29,266 bases of DNA from a virus, in IMG/VR virus record IMGVR_UViG_3300009001_001862, positions 1 through 29,266 of that record; one strand, given 5' to 3'. How positions within the stretch are numbered: position 1 is the first letter of the stretch; each line of letters begins with the position of its first letter. Positions 7,781 through 20,164 of the stretch are shown here, piece after piece. The notes under the pieces are model-generated. The model saw only the letters and a list, made by a program, of their open reading frames with translations, was not told the DNA's origin and made no database searches. The position numbers were made by a program, and so were the translations under genes.

Positions 7781-8073
7781 TGGCTGGCGAGAATGATTTC
7801 AATTCAAGGGTGTTTGGTGTAGTCCCTACAACGTTCACCCCAGGGTTTGAATTGCACGTTATGACAAGCGAAGCCTACAATTCACGGGTGTTGAACCTAC
7901 GTTTGAATCGGGTCATTCCATCTGTCCGAGGCTATACGGGCTACACAAAACAGGGTTTCATGCTTTCAAGAGATGAAGCGAGATTGCTTCTTGATAAATT
8001 GGTTGAAGTGATTCATGATGATGATGCTTGGGAAGATGAGCCAGATGAAATCGTGGTGATGGATGATGATTGA
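7777..8073 (+). CDS. PC4-like (transcription coactivator p15-type) candidate, 98 aa
   Basis: Residues about 38-80 read VLNLRLNRVIPS...GYTKQGFMLSRDEARLLLDKLVEVI. That is the PC4 pattern of strands, a Lys-x-Gly turn, a 'gxSLsxxEaxxLixxL'-type strand and a closing helix. PC4 family proteins bind single-stranded DNA and assist transcription initiation. The C-terminus is a run of acidic residues (DDDAWEDEPDE...DDD), common in ssDNA-binding proteins. ATG 7777 overlaps the previous stop. It overlaps the TFB-like gene by 11 bp, so both are likely co-translated. The assignment rests on a short pattern and needs a profile search. Confidence 0.45.
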   Translation: MMAGENDFNSRVFGVVPTTFTPGFELHVMTSEAYNSRVLNLRLNRVIPSVRGYTGYTKQGFMLSRDEARLLLDKLVEVIHDDDAWEDEPDEIVVMDDD

Positions 8074-8431
8074 ACGTTGGGAGGAACACCACAGGGAAAC
8101 CATTGAACAACTGGTTGCCCGACTTGATTTACCCGAAGAGATAGTCCCCATTGCCTTTGAGATTTGGAGGGCGGCTCGATTGAAAGCAGCGAGAGTCCCT
8201 AAATCATTGATTGTTGATTGCGTCTATTTGGTCGCCCACATGACAGGGAATCGCCGTTCTATCATTGACATGGCCGACGCAGCACTAAGCGTGATTCAAC
8301 GTCGCACCAAACCATTCAATCAGGATCGGCGGAAGGAAAGCACAAAATGGATTGAAACGGAATGGGCAAAGAAAGTCGTTCTTGAACAAATCCCTGATGA
8401 GCAATTGCTTGAGGATTTCTTGAATAGGTGA
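8063..8431 (+). CDS. TFB/cyclin-like protein with a single cyclin repeat, 122 aa
   Basis: Residues 15-80 resemble one cyclin fold repeat of archaeal transcription factor B. LDLPEEIVPIAFEIWRAARL, then a KSLIVDCVYLVAHMTG helix and NRRSIIDMADAA, match the family pattern 'L.LP..V...A..iyr.A...', '.iaAa.vYaA....g' and 'RTl.EiA..a'. TFB normally has an N-terminal zinc ribbon plus two repeats in about 300 aa; here both the ribbon and one repeat are missing. A small TFB-like protein could compete with or replace host TFB at promoters, or bind TBP-DNA. It overlaps the PC4-like gene, which adds context. Homology is judged by eye. Confidence 0.5.
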   Translation: MMIERWEEHHRETIEQLVARLDLPEEIVPIAFEIWRAARLKAARVPKSLIVDCVYLVAHMTGNRRSIIDMADAALSVIQRRTKPFNQDRRKESTKWIETEWAKKVVLEQIPDEQLLEDFLNR

Positions 8432-8435
8432 TGGT

Positions 8436-9926
8436 GTGAACTACCGCATCTTTGCTGAATCCATGCGGGTCTGCAAAGCCATGCCCAAGGACAAATCAAA
8501 AATCATCAAGAACATGCTTTTGATGTCCCCGTTGAGCCAATGGAAAGTCGCATACCTCTCCCATGCCCCCTCATCAACACATAGGCTCTCCGACGAGGAC
8601 TTGAGGGAGATTTTCTTCCACCTTACCGATCTTTATCCAGAAGAGATGCCCGATTTTTCAAACCCCATCACAATGCTGGCGAACCTGTCAAGGGCGAACA
8701 AAACCGTTGCGACAATTGACAGAATGTTTGAGGCCACAAGAAACGTGCTTGAAACGATGGAATGCAATGAGCGTCGAGCGATTTTGATTCGTCCCTTGTT
8801 TTCACGTGTGGCCTCTCAGGACATGGCGGTTTTCTTCTTGCGACTGAGCAATCACCAAGGCCCAATCAACAGGCATGACATAACAAAAGCACTTGCTCAC
8901 GCTAATGGTGAACTCATGCGACATGTGCGAAAAGCCTCATTCCTGATTGGCTTAGAAAAGGTATGCGATAGGCTATCACGCCAAGAGAGCATCCATGATG
9001 TGTTGAGGCCAGCAATTGGGATGCCTATTGTGATCCCCTCGCCAACAATTGTCAAAATCCAAGACGTGCCTTTCGGACGTTCCCTTCTTGAAATCCCAGA
9101 AGGGGAAAGAATGACCCTGCATGTTCTCAAAGACGATGTTCGCATGTTCAATGCGGCTGGAATTGTTGTTGATGTGGAGGAATCAACATACAAATTGATG
9201 GAGGCTGCACGTATCAAGGAGGGCATTTACCTCATCGAATACGCAAGCGGAAGGGACGTTGAACTGATGTTCCTTGATTTGCTTACACCATCGGTTGAAA
9301 CGATGCCCTTTGAGAAGCGACGTGTTGAGATCGGTTGCCCTAAGTGGTTGTTGAAACCAATGAAAATGATTGATGAGGCAGCGTATTACCTTGAACACGT
9401 TGGGACAAAACAACCAACCGTCCTTTGGAATGCAAACGGCATCCTCACTTACGAGAGTTCAGTCTATGAATCGGTGCTGATGAACGTCCATGAAACGCAC
9501 AAATCTGTTTTCAAGGTGGTTGGCGGGGTCTATGTCAAAGAAACCCCACAGTCCCGCCCCAAATTATCAAAATGGCGTGTTGCAGTTAGGGATGGCGATT
9601 CGTTTTACGAAGTGGGGCTGGTGGACATTGACCCTCGTTTGTCCCTCATGCGTTTTGTCAATCCACACAAAATCGTTGAGGGTGAAGAGGTGTCAATGAA
9701 CACCTCGGTTTTTGTCAATGTCCATGTGATTTCATCTGGTTGGGGGGATTATGGGGCTTACATTCAAGGCGTGATTGAAAGCGTGGCGAGTCGTGCGGGG
9801 CGCAATGATTGTGTTAGCATTGACGAAATCGAAGCCTTGACAAAAAGATGGGATGATGAATATGCAGATATTGACAAAGACATGGACTTCGTGGACTCAA
9901 TGGGCCATGAAGAAGGAGGGAATTGA
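8436..9926 (+). CDS. Degenerate ATP-dependent DNA ligase-like protein, 496 aa
   Basis: GTG 8436 start. The domain order follows archaeal DNA ligase I. The N-terminal DNA-binding domain (about 1-190) has FFLRLSNHQGPINRHDITKA in place of the 'LLGdLriGv.e.tvldAla' segment. The nucleotidyltransferase domain (about 195-340) has IGMPIVIPSPT for 'vG.PirPMLA', LHVLKDDVRMFN for 'vqvHkdGd.v.iysR', and LMFLDLLTPSVETMPFEKRR for 'l.lFDvLYldG..l...p..eRR'. The OB-like C-terminus (about 370-496) has DSFYEVGLVD for 'g.flevGkVg'. The motif I region is EIPEGER (219-225) where active ligases have ExKxDGxR, so the lysine that carries AMP is absent. Ligation is unlikely; nick or DNA-end binding is possible. Length is slightly below the usual 550-600 aa. 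Confidence 0.65.
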   Translation: MNYRIFAESMRVCKAMPKDKSKIIKNMLLMSPLSQWKVAYLSHAPSSTHRLSDEDLREIFFHLTDLYPEEMPDFSNPITMLANLSRANKTVATIDRMFEATRNVLETMECNERRAILIRPLFSRVASQDMAVFFLRLSNHQGPINRHDITKALAHANGELMRHVRKASFLIGLEKVCDRLSRQESIHDVLRPAIGMPIVIPSPTIVKIQDVPFGRSLLEIPEGERMTLHVLKDDVRMFNAAGIVVDVEESTYKLMEAARIKEGIYLIEYASGRDVELMFLDLLTPSVETMPFEKRRVEIGCPKWLLKPMKMIDEAAYYLEHVGTKQPTVLWNANGILTYESSVYESVLMNVHETHKSVFKVVGGVYVKETPQSRPKLSKWRVAVRDGDSFYEVGLVDIDPRLSLMRFVNPHKIVEGEEVSMNTSVFVNVHVISSGWGDYGAYIQGVIESVASRAGRNDCVSIDEIEALTKRWDDEYADIDKDMDFVDSMGHEEGGN

Positions 9927-9929
9927 AGG

Positions 9930-10433
9930 ATGGATGAGGCTAACGTTGGTGATGTTTTCAATATCAACAATCAGCCTGGTTCTTCTATTGCTGGTGGCGA
10001 TAATCGCACCGATAGCGTGGTTCTATCGGAAAATGATTTGATCCGCACCATGCAATCGGCCATGCTGATACGTGGGGAAATCCGTTGTCGGCTTTCAACC
10101 AAGTTCAGTTGTGGTTATGAAATCCGCCCGATCATTTGGTTCGCCAAGCGAACACCTGAGATTGATGCAACGTTGAATCAGTTAGGCTTGACGTGGAAAC
10201 AAACCTACGTGAAAACCGAGGACATAGCCAAATTAACCCACGCATTCCAGCGTTTCTTCAATTTGAGCGTGAAGTCGCATGGACTGAAAATGGTGGCGAG
10301 GCTTAATGGTGTTCTCCCTCAACCCCTTGATTACGACGAAGTGCAGGAATCACTTGCTCAAATTGAGAAGCATAGTGAGGCATTAAATAGCCAATCCCCT
10401 TCGGATGAATCCCGCAAAGGTGAGCAAACATGA
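9930..10433 (+). CDS. Hypothetical protein, 167 aa
   Basis: ATG 9930 starts 3 bp after the ligase-like gene. The first 28 residues are Asn/Gly-rich (VFNINNQPGSSIAGGDNRTD), then a globular part with CRLSTKFSCGYEIRP and RFFNLSVKSHGLKMVARLNG, and a charged Ser/Glu tail. It overlaps the ssDNA-binding-like gene by 4 bp. No family recognised. Its position between the ligase-like and OB-like genes suggests a DNA metabolism role, which is only inference. Confidence 0.65.
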   Translation: MDEANVGDVFNINNQPGSSIAGGDNRTDSVVLSENDLIRTMQSAMLIRGEIRCRLSTKFSCGYEIRPIIWFAKRTPEIDATLNQLGLTWKQTYVKTEDIAKLTHAFQRFFNLSVKSHGLKMVARLNGVLPQPLDYDEVQESLAQIEKHSEALNSQSPSDESRKGEQT

Positions 10434-11743
10434 TGAACGAAGCATTGAAGCGAATTATGGAAAACAAAAACTGGAATGAAGATGAAACGGTGTCGGCCTT
10501 TGCTGACTTCGTGAAGGAGAACTACCCTGAGATTTGGAATCAGGCTGGACAAAGCATCGGCAACCTCGAAGCCGAGGACTTGGACTTCTTCTCGTCTGCA
10601 TTTGAAGTGAACTCCGTCCGACGAAAGGGTTCTGGCGGCAAGGGCGAAACATGGGTCGGCATGGTCGTGGCCTACGATGGGACACGGGACATGATGCAAC
10701 GCCAGCGTGATACCGCCATTGAAGCAGCCGAAGTGAACCTCGGCCAAGCCCTGCGCTACGGCATCCGTCAAGGCGAGAAAACCATCGGCATTGGTCGTGT
10801 GGTCAAGGAGAACGGCGAATGGGTTGTCAAGAGCGCAGACGACTCCCTGCTTTACAAGGAGTCCGAAACGGACGGCAAGACCCCTCAATGGGTTATCGCC
10901 ATCAACAACGGCGCATCGCACATCTGTTTGCTCAAGGACGACAACCGTTCACCCAAGCGAGCCTTCATGGTGAAGCGAAAGTGGCTTTTCATCGGCAACA
11001 CCCAAGAGAAGTTCCTCAACGAAGGTGCATTGCCCCCAATGACCCTCGAATGTTCGTTTGGTGCGGCTGAGGTTGAACTCCAAATGCTGCGCCCCATCAC
11101 CTTCAAGGCCGAGATGGAGAAGGCGTGGAAGCCAGCAGGATCGGATGAGCCAGACGAGAACCAACTCGTCGCTCTTGACATTGACCCAGACTACGGTTTG
11201 GGGTGGGTGGACGATGAAATCCTCCCACGTGTCACCCAACTGTTCTCCCCCGACCAGTTCATCGCCAACTTCATGCCTTCTGTTGATTTGGCCGAGGTCT
11301 TTGACTATCACATGGAGAACCGCAAGATTCTCTCGTCTGGTCGGGACTTTGGGCCTCTCTTCGCCATTTCTGGGACGGTGGACTACATCGACCACGCAGG
11401 AAAAGAGAACCTATACACCGATGGCGGCTTCAAGCATTCAATTACCCTCACGTCCAACAGTCTGCGACGAGAGGATGCGAATGCTAACCTGTGGATTGAC
11501 GTTTCCCGCTACCTTGTGGAGAAGCAACACGCATTCCAAGTCAAGAAGGCCGATGGCTGGAAGGACTACGCATCAGGGAGTCGCCTGTGGGTCATTGTGC
11601 GCTCTCGCACGTGGCAAGGAACAGACGGCGGCATCAACATCAACTTGGACGCAAAGGGCGTGTATGCAATGCCCCTTCGCTCGATTGTTGCGAAGGTCGC
11701 CCCTGCCGACGCCAACGACGTTTCCCACACGGACAACTTTTGA
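10430..11743 (+). CDS. Putative OB-fold single-stranded DNA-binding protein, 437 aa
   Basis: ATG 10430 follows AGGTGAG, a good ribosome binding site. Residues about 300-425 look like an OB fold: GPLFAISGTVDYIDHA, ITLTSNSLRR, NLWIDVSRYL, then YASGSRLWVIVRSRTWQG and NLDAKGVYAMP. A second beta-rich block lies at about 70-200 (WVGMVVAYDG, GIGRVVKENGEWVV). The C-terminus ends in an acidic/aromatic tip, DVSHTDNF, reminiscent of the partner-binding tail of single-strand binding proteins. It lies directly before a Sak4-like recombinase, a usual partner of phage ssDNA-binding proteins. Codon use is strongly biased, as expected for an abundant protein. I infer function from fold pattern and context; a structural protein is the main alternative. 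Confidence 0.5.
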   Translation: MMNEALKRIMENKNWNEDETVSAFADFVKENYPEIWNQAGQSIGNLEAEDLDFFSSAFEVNSVRRKGSGGKGETWVGMVVAYDGTRDMMQRQRDTAIEAAEVNLGQALRYGIRQGEKTIGIGRVVKENGEWVVKSADDSLLYKESETDGKTPQWVIAINNGASHICLLKDDNRSPKRAFMVKRKWLFIGNTQEKFLNEGALPPMTLECSFGAAEVELQMLRPITFKAEMEKAWKPAGSDEPDENQLVALDIDPDYGLGWVDDEILPRVTQLFSPDQFIANFMPSVDLAEVFDYHMENRKILSSGRDFGPLFAISGTVDYIDHAGKENLYTDGGFKHSITLTSNSLRREDANANLWIDVSRYLVEKQHAFQVKKADGWKDYASGSRLWVIVRSRTWQGTDGGININLDAKGVYAMPLRSIVAKVAPADANDVSHTDNF

Positions 11744-11755
11744 GGTGAATGAACC

Positions 11756-12994
11756 ATGACAGGAACAGGATTTTTGGACAACTGGAAGCCCGTTGATACG
11801 AACAAAGAACCCTCTCAGCAGGTGAAGGCTGAGGCAACCAGCCTCCCCTCCACGGCTGACGTGGCTCAAGCCCCTGTGGTGAACCAATCCCTGCCCTCCG
11901 TTGAAGAGAGGCAATCGGGAATGGTTTCTGGATTCGCTGCTGATGATTTCCCCATTGAGGCGTTGGTTGATGAAGAACCATCGCCACAGGAAGAACCAGC
12001 ACCAGCACCAAGCGGTGCGTGGACGCTGCCTCAATCAGCCAACCCTGCCGCCAAGCGTGTTGCCGTCGCCCGATCCACCCATGTTCGCAAGGGTAAGAAG
12101 GTCATTTGTGGCGTTTCTGGTGGTCGCAAGGGCGGGAAGTCGGGTATGTTGCTCGATTCTCGCACCGATGAAGAGGTCGCCAACGGTGCAATGATTTTCG
12201 TTGCCGACTTTGACGGCGGTTCGGATTCAACCGTCGCAGCGCACCACCAAGACAAGCCAGGGATTGTCATTCTCAATCCGTGGGTCTTGAACCGCCAGTC
12301 AAGAAGTCGTGTCCCATTCAACTACCCTGAAACCTTCAACAAGGCGATGGACGACCTGTTGTATGCTCTTGAGGTCGCTGAGGCCCAAGACGAATACTTC
12401 AAACTCCACGGCAAGTTGCCGAACCCATACCTTAAGACCTTCATTTTTGATGGGATGGACCATTGGTTGCATGTCTGTGGAACCGCCATGAAAATTGAGG
12501 ACTTGGACTTGGGCGACGATGCCGTGGACGTTTCAGGCAAGAAAACCACCACCCGCATTGGTCGTTTCAATTGGGAGTTCCGAAAGAACCGATACCAAGC
12601 CGCCATGAACGCCTTCCAAGAGTTGGCTCGATTGAACGTTCACGTCTATGTTATCACGGGCGTTAAGCCGTCCTACGACTCCAACGGGAACGAAATCATG
12701 GGTGCTGATGTTCCAGCATGGATGAAGGACACCGAGCGTGATCTTGAACAACTGATTGAGATTACCCTTGAGGAAGAACGTGATGAGATCGGTGGGCTTA
12801 CGGGCAAGGTCGTTTCAAAGGCACAGTTGAAGTTCGACAGGACTTCCCTTCGCCTCCCTGAGCCAGTCATTCTCTTTGAGCAGCAGGTCGGAACAGACGG
12901 TCAATGGTTTGGCTACAAAGGACTACGTGATGGTTCTTTTGAGCATCCCGACGACGTTCACGAACTGGTTCAAGAGGAAGAGGATTCAGCGTGA
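11756..12994 (+). CDS. Sak4-type RecA-like recombinase ATPase, 412 aa
   Basis: ATG 11756 follows GAGGTGAATGAACC. The first 90 residues are a Pro/Ala/Glu-rich, probably disordered extension. A Walker A motif GVSGGRKGGKSG lies near 119-130, and a Walker B strand TFIFDGMDHW near 228-237. AMIFVADFDGGSD between them is the typical second strand. Later come YVITGVKP and an Asp/Glu-rich tail (QEEEDSA). Sak4 proteins are single-domain RecA/RadA relatives used by tailed viruses for strand annealing with a cognate ssDNA-binding protein, here probably the upstream gene. The length without the N-terminal extension fits the family, somewhat enlarged. Confidence 0.8.
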   Translation: MTGTGFLDNWKPVDTNKEPSQQVKAEATSLPSTADVAQAPVVNQSLPSVEERQSGMVSGFAADDFPIEALVDEEPSPQEEPAPAPSGAWTLPQSANPAAKRVAVARSTHVRKGKKVICGVSGGRKGGKSGMLLDSRTDEEVANGAMIFVADFDGGSDSTVAAHHQDKPGIVILNPWVLNRQSRSRVPFNYPETFNKAMDDLLYALEVAEAQDEYFKLHGKLPNPYLKTFIFDGMDHWLHVCGTAMKIEDLDLGDDAVDVSGKKTTTRIGRFNWEFRKNRYQAAMNAFQELARLNVHVYVITGVKPSYDSNGNEIMGADVPAWMKDTERDLEQLIEITLEEERDEIGGLTGKVVSKAQLKFDRTSLRLPEPVILFEQQVGTDGQWFGYKGLRDGSFEHPDDVHELVQEEEDSA

Positions 12995-13173
12995 GCGAAT
13001 ACGGCTTCCCAAAGGACGAGAAATACGGCCAAGGGTGCAAACACATTTGGCGTGTTCTTGACACGCAGGTTCAACGACACCCTGAACACGGTTTGGTTCT
13101 CAAGGCATATTGCTACAACTGCGGGAGTCATGGAACGGCGAAAGTTCAAATCATCATTGACAAAGAGGGTTGA
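12991..13173 (+). CDS. Small zinc-binding protein, 60 aa
   Basis: GTG 12991 overlaps the Sak4 stop (GTGA). CKH (residue 16-18) and CYNCGSHG (about 41-48) could make one zinc site with the histidines. An alternating strand pattern follows (AKVQIIID). Short spacing to both neighbours suggests co-translation. Function unknown. Confidence 0.6.
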   Translation: MSEYGFPKDEKYGQGCKHIWRVLDTQVQRHPEHGLVLKAYCYNCGSHGTAKVQIIIDKEG

Positions 13174-13175
13174 AC

Positions 13176-14144
13176 ATGGAAGAGAAAGTCGGCTTGGTTT
13201 GTTTTTCGGGTGGGAAGGATAGCACCGCTATGCTTCTTCGCTTGCTCGAACTTGACGACCCATCCATGCCTGTCAATCGCATTGTGTTTGCCGATACAGG
13301 ATTTGAGTTCCCTGAATTGTTGGAATACATGAACAACGTCATGAAATACATCAACACAAAATATCCAGAAAAGAACCTTGAACTTGAGATGGTCGGTTCT
13401 CCCCGATCATGGGATGATTGGTTCTATGGGGTCATGCAGCGTGGTGCAAACAAAGGAAAGCAACGTGGCGCACCTCTCCGAGCATATCCTTGCTATTGGG
13501 CGAGAGAAGCAAAGGTTCAGCCATTGCAGAAGGTTGCTGAGGAAGCCGACATTGCTTACATTGGCATCGCTGCCGACGAAGCCCACCGTGTCGGAAAGAA
13601 GGACGACCCTCGGAACGCAAAGAACCGATACCCATTGGTTGAATGGGGATGGTCGGAGGATGATTGCATCAAATACCTCGATGGACTCGAAATGGTGAAC
13701 GAACTTTACGTTCACTTTGACCGCTTGGGGTGCTTTCATTGCATCAAACAACCGCTTGATTCATGGTGGAATCTGTGGCGTGGCTATCCTGAGTTTTGGG
13801 AGATTGCCAAGCATTGGGATAAGGAGAGCGTGAAGGTGAGCAATCACGGCCTCCGATCCATGAAGCCTGGAAAGGATGGTTATTTGCTTGAAGAATTGGA
13901 AGAACGATTCAAGCAAGGCTACAAACCCCCATCAAAGAAAGGAAAGTTCGATTGTAAATCATGCAAAGCGGTTTCTTTTACTGCTCTCGGTCAATTGAAG
14001 TTAGAGGATTTCAACATTGAAAACGCACCTGAACTCATTGATGCGAAGTTCATTGACCTTGAGCCAACGGCTGATGAGGTTTTGATTGAACCAGATGATG
14101 ATGTTTCTTGCGATATTGTAGGGGGGTCTTTTGATGATGATTGA
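13176..14144 (+). CDS. PAPS reductase / PP-loop ATP pyrophosphatase-like protein, 322 aa
   Basis: ATG 13176 (an in-frame TTG at 13170 adds two residues). The PP-loop SGGKDST is at residues 11-17. FADTGFEFPE near 38-47 and CYWAREAKVQPLQ near 107-119 match the PAPS-reductase pattern of a cysteine followed by 'K V x P L'. CFHC (about 187-190) and CKSC (about 264-267) may bind Zn or an Fe-S cluster. The domain splits ATP or PAPS to activate a substrate. In viruses such proteins are frequent and suspected in DNA modification, related to DndC of DNA phosphorothioation. Here it abuts a methyltransferase gene, which fits that idea. The chemistry cannot be settled from sequence; sulfur assimilation is the alternative. 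Confidence 0.8.
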   Translation: MEEKVGLVCFSGGKDSTAMLLRLLELDDPSMPVNRIVFADTGFEFPELLEYMNNVMKYINTKYPEKNLELEMVGSPRSWDDWFYGVMQRGANKGKQRGAPLRAYPCYWAREAKVQPLQKVAEEADIAYIGIAADEAHRVGKKDDPRNAKNRYPLVEWGWSEDDCIKYLDGLEMVNELYVHFDRLGCFHCIKQPLDSWWNLWRGYPEFWEIAKHWDKESVKVSNHGLRSMKPGKDGYLLEELEERFKQGYKPPSKKGKFDCKSCKAVSFTALGQLKLEDFNIENAPELIDAKFIDLEPTADEVLIEPDDDVSCDIVGGSFDDD

Positions 14145-14688
14145 TAGAAGTTGGGCAATGCCAAATGCACTTACATTTTCAATACAGCCAATAAAATTAT
14201 TTTTAGAGGAAGAAATCAAAGGGGCTGAATGGGCCGATCCATTCGCAAGAGATACAGATTTAGCAAAATACACAAACGACCTTAACCCCAATACAAAAGC
14301 CAAAGACAACATGGAAGCATTAGATTTTTTGAAAACTTTTGACGACAATTCTCTTGACGGGGTTCTTTTTGATCCTCCCTATTCCCCACGCCAAATTAAA
14401 GAGATGTATGATGAAATAGGAATACCTCTCCATGATACCAAAAGTTCGGTTTGGTCGAATTGGAAAAAAGAAATTGCCAGAATAGTCAAACCTGGTGGCA
14501 AGGTCATATCATTTGGATGGAATACCTGCGGTGTTGGTTTGACACTTGGTTTCAAAATAGAGCGCATATTACTCGTATGTCACGGTGGCAACCATAATGA
14601 TACAATCGTGACACTTGAAGTGAAAGGCAATAAAGCAAACCACCCCTCGGCAAAACAAACGACTCTTTTTCAGGAGGGAGATGAATGA
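14134..14688 (+). CDS. DNA adenine/cytosine-N methyltransferase-like protein, 184 aa
   Basis: Start taken as ATG 14134 (14137 also possible) after a G-rich GTAGGGGGGTC. Catalytic motif DPPYSPRQIKEMYD (motif IV DPPY) and VKPGGKVISFGWNT are clear; GGNHNDTIVTLEVK closes the fold. The 'FxGxG' AdoMet motif is not obvious, so this is the short form of the family seen in tailed viruses. The C-terminus KQTTLFQEGDE contains a clamp-binding-like Q-x-T-L-F. The gene is much more AT-rich than its neighbours: bases 14161-14220 have 16 G+C of 60. This points to recent acquisition. It overlaps both neighbours. Confidence 0.8.
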   Translation: MMIDRSWAMPNALTFSIQPIKLFLEEEIKGAEWADPFARDTDLAKYTNDLNPNTKAKDNMEALDFLKTFDDNSLDGVLFDPPYSPRQIKEMYDEIGIPLHDTKSSVWSNWKKEIARIVKPGGKVISFGWNTCGVGLTLGFKIERILLVCHGGNHNDTIVTLEVKGNKANHPSAKQTTLFQEGDE

Positions 14689-15704
14689 AAATTAAACCAC
14701 CATATCCTCGCCCAGTTCCCGTAAGTGGAAACCTGCATTCAACATACGCATGGCATCCAGGGATGGCTGATGATAAAGTCCTTCGTGTGAGCAAGTCATC
14801 TCTTGGGGCTTTTCAAACCTGCGAGCAACAATACTTCATCAAATATGTTATCGGTGTCAAAGAGCCTGAGAATGACAACATGATTCGAGGGACAAACGTT
14901 CACGATGCTTACGAGTTCATCATGGATCGTAGCCTTGACGTTGAACACGCAGCGAAGTTGCGTGATGAAGGAGGATATGATGCCGTCAAATCATATTTCC
15001 TTTCGCTCATTCCCCCCGCACAAATCAAGAAGGGTTGGGATGATGAATACGCCAAACCGACAGACAACGAATACACGTTGGACGAGCCACAACACCTTGG
15101 ACGTTTGATGGTGGCTGAGGCACGTCGTTTCATGACCTGCTCGCCAGACGCATTCAAGCCTGTTGGAAATGAGTTGGGCGTTGATGCAATCGTTGAACTT
15201 GACATTAACGGAACAAAAGTCAAGGTTCACCTAAATGGTTTCATTGACCGCCTATTCATGGACAACGAAGGCAATTATCACGTTCATGAACTCAAGACGG
15301 GTATGTGGAAGGACAAGAAAACCAAATACGAAAGCATGGCTAAGGAAATGGCGTTTTATGCCTACATGCTCAAGAAATCATCGCAGACCGACTTTGGGGG
15401 CATAACGGTGTCCTATTGGGGTTGGGATCACACCAAAGGCCATGAGGACAACCCAAACGAGATTTACCGACACGTCGAACATGTAAAGGCCGACGTGATA
15501 ATGGACATGCTTACCGACCTCAAAGCCCTTGCATCAGCACACCTTCGCTACAAAGGCGACAATGACGGTAAAATGTTCGCCACCAAGCCTTCTGGCTCGG
15601 AACGTTTCTTCTGTGAGCCGTGGTGCGCCATCAAAGGTTTCTGCCCCAAATACGAGCGACACATGATGCCTCACGAACTGAGGCCAAAGAGGGAGGCGAA
15701 TTGA
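14685..15704 (+). CDS. PD-(D/E)XK nuclease of the Cas4/RecB-like type with probable Fe-S cluster, 339 aa
   Basis: ATG 14685 overlaps the previous stop. LSRSSLGAF-like KSSLGAFQTCEQQYFIKYV near 37-55 is the N-terminal signature with a first Cys. GFIDRLF (about 185-191) and HELKTG (about 201-206) supply the Asp and Glu-x-Lys of the active site, and KEMAFYAYMLKK gives the following Q/Y-type helix. CEPWCAIKGFC (about 310-320) gives three more Cys, so four ligands for a [4Fe-4S] cluster as in Cas4 and AddB. A 5'-end-processing exonuclease acting with the Sak4 protein is the simplest role. There is no CRISPR array nearby. Confidence 0.85.
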   Translation: MKIKPPYPRPVPVSGNLHSTYAWHPGMADDKVLRVSKSSLGAFQTCEQQYFIKYVIGVKEPENDNMIRGTNVHDAYEFIMDRSLDVEHAAKLRDEGGYDAVKSYFLSLIPPAQIKKGWDDEYAKPTDNEYTLDEPQHLGRLMVAEARRFMTCSPDAFKPVGNELGVDAIVELDINGTKVKVHLNGFIDRLFMDNEGNYHVHELKTGMWKDKKTKYESMAKEMAFYAYMLKKSSQTDFGGITVSYWGWDHTKGHEDNPNEIYRHVEHVKADVIMDMLTDLKALASAHLRYKGDNDGKMFATKPSGSERFFCEPWCAIKGFCPKYERHMMPHELRPKREAN

Positions 15705-16816: not shown

Positions 16817-17917
16817 ATGGCCCTCTTCAATCATTTTCCACGTGAAATTGACATGAGGACACGTAAAGTGATTCACAATCGAAAGCAGTTGGAACACTAC
16901 ATCGAAACCACCAACGGCAAAGGCAACCTCACAACCACCGTCTATGGATTCAGGGGATTGAAGCCGAAGGGCAACCGTTGTGAATACAACACGGCCATTG
17001 TTCCTCATTTTGTCATGGATTTTGATGCCGACCAAGGAATACGTGTTCACGACATGGAGGAATCCGAGGCAAAGAGCAGGTGTTGTGATGAGGTGTTGAG
17101 TCTTTCACGACACCTTGACCAAGACTCTCATCGCCATGCCGTGTGGTTCACAGGCGGGGGTTTTCACATTTGGACGAAACTTGACAACGAATACGTGCTG
17201 CCCCCTGAAAAGATGGCCGACCTCCTGTTCTCAGGACGCATGAAAGTCAATGGATGGGTTAAGCGTTTCAACCTCAAGACCCTTGACCCCGTGGTTTCGT
17301 TTAGACCTGATCGCCACATTCGCATCCCTAACACGTTCAACTTCAAACGTCAAATCTGGGGCATTCCTGTCAAGCATGAGGATTTAGAGGCTGGATGGGA
17401 TTTCATCGTTGAGAAGGCCAAAGAACCCAAACCAGGAATGCACCTTTACGGAATAAGCGGGATGCCTCTTGAAATCGTTGAGCGCAGTTCTGTTGATATG
17501 TTCAAGAGCCGCTACAACGAGGAAACGAGGTCATTTGAAATGGAGAACATTGACATTGACATTGAACGCATCAACAACATTCCCATGTTGCCCTGCTTGG
17601 CTCAGGCTGCATGTGAGAAGGGAAGCAACCCTCCACACAAACCCCGATCCTATTTGATGATGTATCTAATGGACTACTTTCGCAACTTCGCTCGACCTGC
17701 GAGGGAGGCCACAGTCCCAAACCATGAGGTGTTGTCATTGACTCACGCATTCATACGCTCGTTGGAATGGGCGGATTATTCACCAACTGAAACGATGAAA
17801 TACCTCACGCATGGCGTTGAGAGGTATTACCTTACACCGACCTGCCCGACCATTTACCATGAGGGATTGTGTGTCGGGAAATGCCCGTATTACGACGAGA
17901 AGGGGGCAACGGCATGA
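16817..17917 (+). CDS. Archaeo-eukaryotic primase, PriS-like domain joined to PriL Fe-S-like domain, 366 aa
   Basis: ATG 16817 after GGGGATGA. The catalytic Asp pair is in HFVMDFDAD (64-72), the nucleotide-binding motif is WFTGGGFHIW (110-119; family form 'FSGrrGfHiw'), and VVSFRPDRHIRIPNTFN (159-174) matches the third motif with Asp and the 'IR.PgS' segment. The C-terminal 120 residues resemble the Fe-S domain of PriL: MLPCLAQAAC (C260, C266), a helical YLMMYLMDYFRNFA, then CPTIYHEGLCVGKC (C343, C352, C356). So both primase subunits appear in one short chain. It would make RNA or DNA primers for replication. A four-Cys zinc site is the alternative to Fe-S. Confidence 0.8.
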   Translation: MALFNHFPREIDMRTRKVIHNRKQLEHYIETTNGKGNLTTTVYGFRGLKPKGNRCEYNTAIVPHFVMDFDADQGIRVHDMEESEAKSRCCDEVLSLSRHLDQDSHRHAVWFTGGGFHIWTKLDNEYVLPPEKMADLLFSGRMKVNGWVKRFNLKTLDPVVSFRPDRHIRIPNTFNFKRQIWGIPVKHEDLEAGWDFIVEKAKEPKPGMHLYGISGMPLEIVERSSVDMFKSRYNEETRSFEMENIDIDIERINNIPMLPCLAQAACEKGSNPPHKPRSYLMMYLMDYFRNFARPAREATVPNHEVLSLTHAFIRSLEWADYSPTETMKYLTHGVERYYLTPTCPTIYHEGLCVGKCPYYDEKGATA

Positions 17918-18957
17918 AATACAAATTGTTGCATGGCGATTGTTCAATCAAAATGAAAGAGATGGATGATAACTCGGTTGAGGCAATTATCACCGATCCC
18001 CCTTATGGTTTGTCATTCATGGGCAAAAAGTGGGATTACGAAGTCCCTTCTGTTGAGATATGGCGTGAAGCCCTTAGAGTCCTCAAACCAGGTGGACACC
18101 TGTTATCCTTTGCTGGTTCACGCACCTATCACCGCATGGCGGTGAACATTGAGGATGCAGGTTTTTGCATCCGTGATCAAATCATGTGGGTGTATTCAAC
18201 GGGCTTCCCGAAGTCGCACAACATAGGCCAAAAGGCCGAGGAATGGGTCGGTTGGGGTTCAGCCCTAAAACCCGCCCATGAGCCTATCGTGGTTGCCCGT
18301 AAGCCCCTTATCGGCACTATCGTTGAGAATGTGCTTAAGCATGGGACGGGTGGCTTGAACATTGACGGTTGCCGTGTGCCGCATAGTGGGAAAGAAGGCG
18401 CATGGGGCGAAGGAAAGAGCAAGGGGTCGATCTATAATGTTGGCGAAGGAAAAAGACATGACGCTGGACGATTCCCCGCTAATTTTATCCACGATGGCTC
18501 GGATGAAGTCGTGGGTCTATTCCCCAACGAAAACGCACGATTCTTTTACTGTGCTAAAACGAGCCAACAAGAAAGGAACGCAGGGCTTGAACACCTCGCT
18601 GATGTTGAGCGCATTGACTACGGCGGCTTTCATAGTGAGGAAGGACTCATCAACAACGGGCGCAACCCTGCGAACCGAATCCCTATGAAGAACCCACACC
18701 CAACTGTTAAGCCCGTGGACTTGATGAAATACCTGTGCCGACTTATCACCCCCCCAAACGGAATCGTTCTTGATCCGTTTATGGGAAGTGGAACAACTGG
18801 TATTGCTGCAACCCAAGAGGGCTTCAATTTCATTGGAATTGAAATGAATGATGAATACATTCAAATCGCAAATCATAGGATTTCACATTGGGTGGAAGAA
18901 AAGCAAGAACTGATTATCGAACAAAGGAAACAAAAGACGTTGTTTGATGGATGGTGA
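17914..18957 (+). CDS. DNA N4-cytosine/N6-adenine methyltransferase, 347 aa
   Basis: ATG 17914 overlaps the primase stop (ATGA). LLHGDCSIKMKEM, then ITDPPYGLSFMGKKWD (motif IV DPPY near 32-35), LKPGGHLLSFAGSRTYHRM, and at the far end DPFMGSGTTGIAA (motif I) and IGIEMNDEYIQIA. The order IV before I makes it a beta-class enzyme. The region from about 110 to 250 is the target recognition part. The tail KQKTLFDGW resembles a sliding-clamp binding peptide. It probably modifies viral DNA; the recognition site and the methylated base are not predictable. Confidence 0.92.
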   Translation: MKYKLLHGDCSIKMKEMDDNSVEAIITDPPYGLSFMGKKWDYEVPSVEIWREALRVLKPGGHLLSFAGSRTYHRMAVNIEDAGFCIRDQIMWVYSTGFPKSHNIGQKAEEWVGWGSALKPAHEPIVVARKPLIGTIVENVLKHGTGGLNIDGCRVPHSGKEGAWGEGKSKGSIYNVGEGKRHDAGRFPANFIHDGSDEVVGLFPNENARFFYCAKTSQQERNAGLEHLADVERIDYGGFHSEEGLINNGRNPANRIPMKNPHPTVKPVDLMKYLCRLITPPNGIVLDPFMGSGTTGIAATQEGFNFIGIEMNDEYIQIANHRISHWVEEKQELIIEQRKQKTLFDGW

Positions 18958-18961
18958 TTAC

Positions 18962-19228
18962 ATGACAGACGAAAAAGAAGAACTTGATGAAATCCGAAGA
19001 AAGAAAGCCGAAGAAATGCTGCAAGCCCACCATAAGGGCGAAGCACCACCAGAAGTGTTGGATTGGTCGTTCCGCCGATCCAATCAATCTGGCTTCATTG
19101 AGATTTGTCAAAAGGACAACATGGTTGCCGTGACCCAAGACCCAAATTGGGCGAACTTGGTCGTGGATATGCTGAACAGTCTTACGTTGGCTCAACAGGT
19201 GGTTGGAAATGACGGAAACGAATTGTGA
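18962..19228 (+). CDS. Hypothetical protein, 88 aa
   Basis: ATG 18962 is chosen because GGTGA precedes it by a good distance; an in-frame ATG at 18947 lies within the previous gene. The first 35 residues form a charged helix (EEKDEIRRKKAEEMLQ-like), the rest is mixed with SFRRSNQSGFIEICQKDNMV. It overlaps the next gene by 20 bp. No family recognised. Confidence 0.6.
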   Translation: MTDEKEELDEIRRKKAEEMLQAHHKGEAPPEVLDWSFRRSNQSGFIEICQKDNMVAVTQDPNWANLVVDMLNSLTLAQQVVGNDGNEL

Positions 19229-19457
19229 AGGCGGGTGGGATAGCCACCGTTGGGAGGTCGGTAAGCAAAACCGACATGCTGCTAAACTCACTATTTTCTG
19301 CAACCAATGTGGTTGTGAACTTCAAGTGTTTGTGAACATCAAAGGTTATCTATGGGAAGTTGGCGAGGTTAATGAAGAAGAAAACACCGTTTATCTCTAT
19401 GACCGTGAGAATCATGAGGAAGAAATCACATTGGAAGTGTTGGAGGCTACTGCATGA
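19209..19457 (+). CDS. Small Cys-containing protein, 82 aa
   Basis: ATG 19209 is in a GGTGGTTGGAA context. CNQCGCEL (about residues 31-38) plus C6 and the early histidines could form a zinc site. The C-terminal half is strongly acidic and strand-like (VNEEENTVYLYDRENHEEE). It overlaps the nuclease gene by 4 bp. Function unknown. Confidence 0.6.
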   Translation: MTETNCEGGWDSHRWEVGKQNRHAAKLTIFCNQCGCELQVFVNIKGYLWEVGEVNEEENTVYLYDRENHEEEITLEVLEATA

Positions 19458-20164
19458 CCGATCAACGGATCCTCTTTATTGACAACCGAGAGCGTTCAGG
19501 GCTTGAGCAGTTGGTTATCAAATACTGCGAGAAAAACAAATTGAACTTTCAAATGCGGCAAACGCTCATCACCGATTATTGCTTTGCTGATGTTGGGATT
19601 GAGGCAAAATCAATTGACGATTACCTATCCAGTCTTTATTCAGGGCATTTGGAACGGCAACTGCAAAACCTTGAGGACAACTACAATTCAGCGATTCTCA
19701 TAATTCATGGAACACTTGACCAGCATATCGCCAACGGAAAGAAGCGAGGAAAGAAAATCCCTTATGCGAAGGTGTTTGGTTCATTTACAGGTTCGCTGGC
19801 GAGGTTTTCAACCGACTACGACATTTCAATTATGACGTTCCCCAACAAATCATTGGCTGCACGTTTCATCTGCAAGCGATTTGAAAAGCATGGGACGCTT
19901 GGCTCATCCTCCACCTATCGTCTGCTTCGAAAGACGGCAACCGAGGACATGAGAATTGACATTTTGCAGGGGGCTGGTTGTAGCCTCGCCATCGCCAAGC
20001 GTTTGCTTGACCTGCATGGTTCAATCGTTGAGATTTCAGGATTGACGGCAAAGGAACTCCAAGCGGTGGAGGGCATCGGCAAAGTCCGAGCCGAGCGCAT
20101 TGTCAAGGCATTCAACTCCGAACAACCAATTGTGCAAGAGAAAGTCAAAATGTCGAGGGCTTGA
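19454..20164 (+). CDS. XPF/ERCC4-family nuclease with HhH domain, 236 aa
   Basis: ATG 19454 overlaps the previous stop (ATGA). The nuclease core has FIDNRER (8-14), TDYCFADVGIEAKSIDDYL (40-58) in place of the family 'GDY......ERK...D' pattern, and YNSAILIIHG. The C-terminal half holds a tandem helix-hairpin-helix: ILQGAGCSLAIAKRLLDLHG and LQAVEGIGKVRAERIVKAF. XPF-type enzymes cut branched or flapped DNA beside single/double-strand junctions. The family Arg of E-R-K is Ala here (E50, A51, K52), but the acidic residues and Lys are present, so activity is plausible. It would resolve recombination or replication intermediates. Confidence 0.85.
   Translation: MTDQRILFIDNRERSGLEQLVIKYCEKNKLNFQMRQTLITDYCFADVGIEAKSIDDYLSSLYSGHLERQLQNLEDNYNSAILIIHGTLDQHIANGKKRGKKIPYAKVFGSFTGSLARFSTDYDISIMTFPNKSLAARFICKRFEKHGTLGSSSTYRLLRKTATEDMRIDILQGAGCSLAIAKRLLDLHGSIVEISGLTAKELQAVEGIGKVRAERIVKAFNSEQPIVQEKVKMSRA

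Follow-up and report, generated by a model that had tools for sequence, protein, structure and literature searches.

Few replication enzymes are as conserved as DNA ligase. The closest described systems to the one considered here are the magroviruses, almost all of which encode PolB, a DNA ligase and an ERCC4 nuclease (PMC10160649), and the Magrovirales have a virus-encoded PolB replisome (PMC12999244, PMC10160649). The contigs with archaeal-type viral ligases used for comparison in this study fit these viruses, since PolB is present in 10 of the 11. Their replication genes lie on a single strand, in an order whose details vary by contig: ligase, small genes, two RFC-like genes, a 408-aa protein (between RFC and the ATPase), a RecA-like ATPase and a clamp-like protein, then PolB, a PD-(D/E)XK nuclease, a primase and ERCC4. 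RFC, clamp, primase and SSB-position are provisional names, taken from sequence and gene order. The clamp-like protein (18621-19397 in locus L246) is missed by the Pfam PCNA_N model, making searches with that model uninformative.

The window analyzed here, a 29.3-kb IMG/VR virus record, has no tRNAs and no Rfam families. Among its genes is a 496-aa open reading frame (Table 1), with a GTG start and no internal stops, described in a first-pass annotation as resembling archaeal DNA ligase I over its whole length but lacking the catalytic lysine. Relatives, gathered with the window protein and its two downstream neighbors as queries, are found in about 16 viral contigs at 55-87% identity, and the gene adjoins the same neighbors wherever the contig extends that far. 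Two copies (L001 and L008) are truncated by contig ends; one, on a short contig (L010), has a single in-frame stop, possibly an assembly error. No relatives were found by tblastn among 50,697 phage records, nor in the genome contig collection searched. The carriers are marine tailed viruses that form a group related to archaeal viruses.

Table 1. Positions of the pseudo-ligase, its domains and former motifs, neighboring genes, and a second ligase-family protein (A6).
Feature	Position	Strand	Basis or remark
TFIIB-repeat-like protein, directly upstream of pseudo-ligase	8063..8431	+	E 8e-5, just under cut-off; kept in relatives
Pseudo-DNA-ligase gene	8436..9926	+	496 aa; open reading frame, profile homology to ligases, conservation in relatives
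Helical N-terminal domain resembling ligase DNA-binding domain (DBD)	8436..9011	+	Residues 1-192; alignment, charge count, helices in both models
Degenerate adenylation domain	9012..9491	+	Residues 193-352
Former motif I, EIPEGER for ExKxDGxR	9090..9110	+	Lys replaced by Pro221, one residue deleted
Former motif III, EGIYLIEYAS	9219..9248	+	Resembles viral TEIYPVE; catalytic Glu replaced by invariant Gly263
Former motif IV lysine, now invariant Asn332	9429..9431	+	Motif alignment
Former first motif V lysine, now invariant Asn350	9483..9485	+	Motif alignment
OB-fold-like C-terminal domain	9492..9845	+	Residues 353-470; motif VI arginines replaced
Small conserved protein, possibly related to a 147-aa magrovirus gene	9930..10433	+	hhalign P 0.03, weak
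437-aa protein	10430..11743	+	N-terminus homologous to that of magrovirus-type 408-aa protein, P 3e-5; putative SSB-like role
RecA-like ATPase	11756..12994	+	Also downstream of ligase in magrovirus-type contigs
PD-(D/E)XK nuclease	14685..15704	+	Common to magrovirus-type contigs
Primase-like protein	16817..17917	+	Homology to magrovirus-type contigs only; putative primase, named from sequence
ERCC4-HhH nuclease	19454..20164	+	Common to magrovirus-type contigs
A6 (loci L254, L255)	G004:9725-11506, G002:50921-52675		A6 rows L067-L087
Intact magrovirus counterpart of A6	loci L256-L258, L260-L339		

Neither single-sequence nor profile searches with the window protein gave a Pfam, PHROG or PDB-sequence match, so that the ligase assignment needed a comparison of profiles; identity to known ligases, archaeal LigI included, is about 16%, and the relationship is visible at the profile level only. 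Compared by hhalign with 11 ligases (archaeal cellular and one bacterial), the family scores 36.7 (P=9e-4), its residues 1-429 corresponding to ligase-profile residues 1-505 over 416 collinear columns; 100 column shuffles gave a mean of 17.9 (SD 3.0) and a maximum of 30.5, over no more than 107 columns. The score is 37.9 against 71 ligases, and 45.8 (P=4.6e-5) against 20 archaeal-type ligases from viral contigs, where 60 column shuffles reached at most 27.9. The best score is thus for the magrovirus-type ligases, above that for cellular ligases, nearly all of those fetched being archaeal. Both hhalign and MAFFT align EIP-EGER beneath EIKYDGAR, MAFFT independently placing LEIP-EGERMTLH beneath FEIKYDGARVQVH. 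In a tree the family is monophyletic (SH-aLRT 100), on a branch too long for it to be placed inside the viral ligases. By these comparisons the protein is a diverged ATP-dependent DNA ligase by descent, with a DBD - adenylation - OB domain order. The proposed ligase ancestry across the whole length is therefore upheld, by hhalign with its shuffle controls and by two alignments; the likeness to archaeal LigI stands as far as descent goes, but the magrovirus-type ligases, rather than those of Pfu and Sulfolobus, were the nearest found.

Predicted structures are consistent with this. An AlphaFold model built from family sequences without any ligase reached a pLDDT of 43, too poor to be read as a structure, although its PDB matches are still informative: the best 50 found by Foldseek are all DNA ligases, with E from 2e-5. 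VIA-align scores for the adenylation domain did not exceed a Z of 5.8, and ATP-grasp folds scored nearly as high, a result that is weak alone. With cellular ligases included in the alignment, the pLDDT rose to 73.5 (53-73.5 among individual models), and the model matches archaeal and human ligases across residues 1-474; being partly circular, it serves as a compatibility check only. The comparison with Pfu and Sulfolobus LigI (2cfm and 2hiv; PF04675/PF01068), put forward at first pass as a check, gives the same predicted fold and domain order. Unlike these enzymes, the window protein is without motifs I, III, IV, V, and VI and the PCNA-binding loop.

The extent of the losses is seen in an alignment of 11 family members with 17 viral and 10 cellular ligases, where positions that hardly vary among ligases are changed across the whole family. 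The motif I lysine is proline in all ten family rows that cover the site (residues 219-225 in the window protein), eight reading EIPEGER, one EIPEGMR (L014), and one EIPEGQW (L035). The eleventh (L008) is cut at motif I, but the opposite end of its contig reads EIPEGER, as does the complete contig G002. The motif III glutamate is glycine in 11 of 11 rows. Here the first-pass annotation had aligned YLIEYAS (9228-9248) with a DGE-type motif; this stretch corresponds instead to the viral IYPVE strand, although the loss of the motif itself is real. The motif IV lysine and the first motif V lysine are asparagine in every row, the motif IV glutamate is proline or valine (Pro327 in the window protein), and the second motif V position is variable; the motif VI arginines have become Tyr442, Gly445, and Ala451 in all 11. 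The absence of the catalytic lysine and the degradation of the other motifs are thus both confirmed. The invariance of lysine among the fetched ligases is partly a selection effect, because the search patterns in part demanded a lysine at motif I or motif IV; no such requirement was placed on the remaining motifs. Sequencing error was considered as a source of the replacements and excluded, the same residues being found in independent contigs with synonymous differences.

Some ligase features are retained in the family: Glu219, Gly223, Arg225 (in 9 of 10), His229, Asp281, and Arg295. Invariant residues are concentrated in two regions, the former pocket (W331, N332, N334, N350) and the OB domain, in the latter of which 47% of positions are fully conserved. 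In the DBD loop, substitutions have removed an Arg and a Gly that never vary among ligases, so that DNA contacts, if any, must be remodelled. The archaeal PCNA-binding QxxxFF loop of the DBD is deleted in all family members, making the usual PCNA-mediated recruitment unlikely; it is missing from the viral ligases in the alignment as well. The net charge of the DBD is +3 to +7 (about +5) in the family, vs. about -2 in active-type viral ligases, and that of the adenylation domain about -10, vs. +2.5.

The gene is nonetheless kept. Its dN/dS is 0.05-0.11, and contigs differ in the synonymous codons used at the replaced catalytic positions, which together indicate that the replaced residues themselves are maintained. 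The suggestion made at first pass that the protein is selected for retention is borne out by these values and by its presence in about 16 contigs. To judge from its sequences, the gene is a viral pseudo-ligase under purifying selection, rather than a decaying gene. Since all the residues for the joining chemistry are replaced and the gene persists, its function must be something other than DNA sealing; the roles named at first pass (nick binding, shielding of ends, recruitment of partners) are candidates.

The gene order points to where this protein came from. The window has the pseudo-ligase, a small gene, the 437-aa protein, the RecA-like ATPase, PD-(D/E)XK nuclease, primase-like protein, and ERCC4 nuclease, with methyltransferases inserted; relative to the SSB-position gene, ATPase, nuclease, primase, and ERCC4, the position and strand of the pseudo-ligase match those of the magrovirus replication ligase. 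That ligase (L166-L181, L184, L185) has the same three-domain body, of 505-510 aa vs. 496, and shares several strands with the window protein (IYPVE/IYLVE, FNRKG/FNAAG, and IAVKDG/VAVRDG), as well as an equal place in the gene order. It differs in that its catalytic residues are present and its contigs carry PolB, RFC, and clamp-like genes. On sequence and order, the pseudo-ligase gene is the apparent orthologue of the magrovirus-type replication-module ligase. Two other genes in the window may be mentioned: the small TFIIB-repeat-like protein (8063-8431) is a possible viral transcription factor, and a PAPS-reductase-domain protein (13170-14144) adjoins several DNA methyltransferases, with which it could form a DNA modification set.

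The genes that accompany the magrovirus ligase were looked for in the window's relatives. PolB was not found in eight records of the window's group, including the complete genome G002, and tblastn detected no RFC or clamp homologue in the relatives; nor was a canonical ligase detected in them, again including G002. This genome (about 96.5 kb) is considered complete because it has a 101-bp terminal direct repeat, with one mismatch. It is that of a tailed virus (L042-L046), with a portal, SU10-type capsid, terminase, UvrD helicase, and chaperonin; the proteins tried found no relatives of it in the phage record collection. The window also has a group II chaperonin (thermosome) gene (1216-2850; Pfam E 1e-127), which supports an archaeal host; thermosome-type chaperonin genes are described from the genomes of viruses of marine group II archaea (PMC5332604).

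The reading that we consider probable, if by no means certain, is that the protein is an orthologue of the magrovirus-type ligase that has become a pseudoenzyme and now acts as a non-catalytic DNA binder. A replication ligase would have been converted in a lineage without detectable PolB, clamp loader, or clamp; all the residues for self-adenylation and nick sealing are gone, on the simplest view through a single loss in the family's ancestor, and purifying selection has kept the three-domain body. The positively charged N-terminal domain may hold nicked, gapped, or branched DNA, while the altered adenylation and OB domains could provide a platform for the SSB-position protein, RecA-like ATPase, nuclease, and primase. 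Nicks might then be protected, or handed over in a recombination-type replication, rather than sealed at once, and sealing would presumably be left to the host ligase. Binding of DNA structures without catalysis, within a recombination/replication module, is the most likely role suggested by the sequences. Counted against it are the replaced DBD-loop residues, and the invariant residues of the former pocket and OB domain, which allow for another ligand or activity.

The strongest rival is that the protein is purely a scaffold, with no ligase-like DNA binding, serving as a protein adaptor in a viral recombination complex. The adenylation and OB domains are strongly conserved yet negatively charged, the DBD loop has lost its Arg and Gly, and the pseudo-ligase always adjoins the same genes, all of which would suit an adaptor; a DBD more positively charged than that of active-type viral ligases would not, and we regard this possibility as unlikely, though worth keeping in view.

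It is rather improbable that the old pocket has been rebuilt for a different reaction or ligand. Such a new enzyme could account for the invariance or near-invariance in 11 sequences of W331, N332, N334, E340, N350, R385-D386-G387-D388, and GWGDYGAY, but no known catalytic pattern is recognized among them, and there is no family match. Improbable, too, is a decoy directed at the host, occupying nicks or host partners and so slowing host ligase or repair: a virus with no detectable canonical ligase or polymerase must meet host enzymes, but this gene lies in a conserved replication/recombination operon, and the archaeal PCNA-binding motif is missing.

Continued ligation by means of a different lysine can be given very little weight: the adenylation domain does have an invariant lysine (K307), but its position is not that of motif I, and the Glu, Lys, and Arg residues that the chemistry requires in motifs III to VI are likewise replaced. 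A decaying gene caught before its loss, as the complete loss of catalytic residues and the possibly artefactual stop in L010 might suggest, is already contradicted by the low dN/dS and by the other complete copies, which are full length and have diversified to 55% identity.

If the protein is indeed a ligase turned DNA binder, it may not be the only one in these viruses. The structural module of magrovirus-type contigs encodes a second member of the ligase family, some 830-880 aa long, whose motifs are intact (QEKYDGMR, LDAEL, EGVVIKD, WIKWKK) and whose profile matches that of viral ligases (hhalign P=3e-18). Its homologue in the window's lineage, A6, lies beyond the 29-kb window; it is found in 24 contigs, with P=2e-15 to the magrovirus form. 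Like the pseudo-ligase, A6 has lost catalytic residues: the motif I lysine is methionine in 10 of 12 rows, the motif III glutamate is tyrosine and the motif IV lysine arginine in all 12, and the motif V lysines are arginine or threonine, and alanine. It is a separate gene and, unlike the pseudo-ligase, is recognized as a ligase relative in its adenylation-domain part alone; the open frame that contains this part spans about 1150 aa in G002 and G004. Matched by contig name, the two degraded proteins are found together in six contigs. Two A6 rows (L067 and L068) have a lysine at motif I (VQKKPMGKR) but neither the motif III Glu nor the motif V Lys; in these, the motif I lysine may have been the last to go, or may have returned.

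The structural-module protein, which carries KxPxGxR, was also considered as a substitute for the lost ligase. This is excluded because the magrovirus counterpart occurs alongside an intact ligase, and for A6 by its own losses at motifs I and III. A tentative proposal, which we hold with less than even confidence, is that the replication and structural-module ligases of a magrovirus-like ancestor were converted in parallel to non-catalytic binders of DNA structures.

Pseudoenzymes are a known kind of protein, and no description of a viral pseudo-DNA-ligase was found in the open-licence literature searched, nor of a dead viral DNA ligase family paired with a second degraded ligase. A ligase body that stays intact and in place after total loss of its chemistry implies a second use for the fold, one without catalysis, which selection can act on by itself. 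In this family nature has supplied separation-of-function proteins that are strongly conserved and can be set against active-type viral relatives. With a second ligase having undergone parallel loss, what ligases do beyond ligating becomes directly testable. If the parallel conversion took place, both viral replication/recombination and packaging would rely on recognizing nicks or ends without sealing them. The pseudo-ligase lineage also documents a possible route from a virus's own replisome to that of its host.
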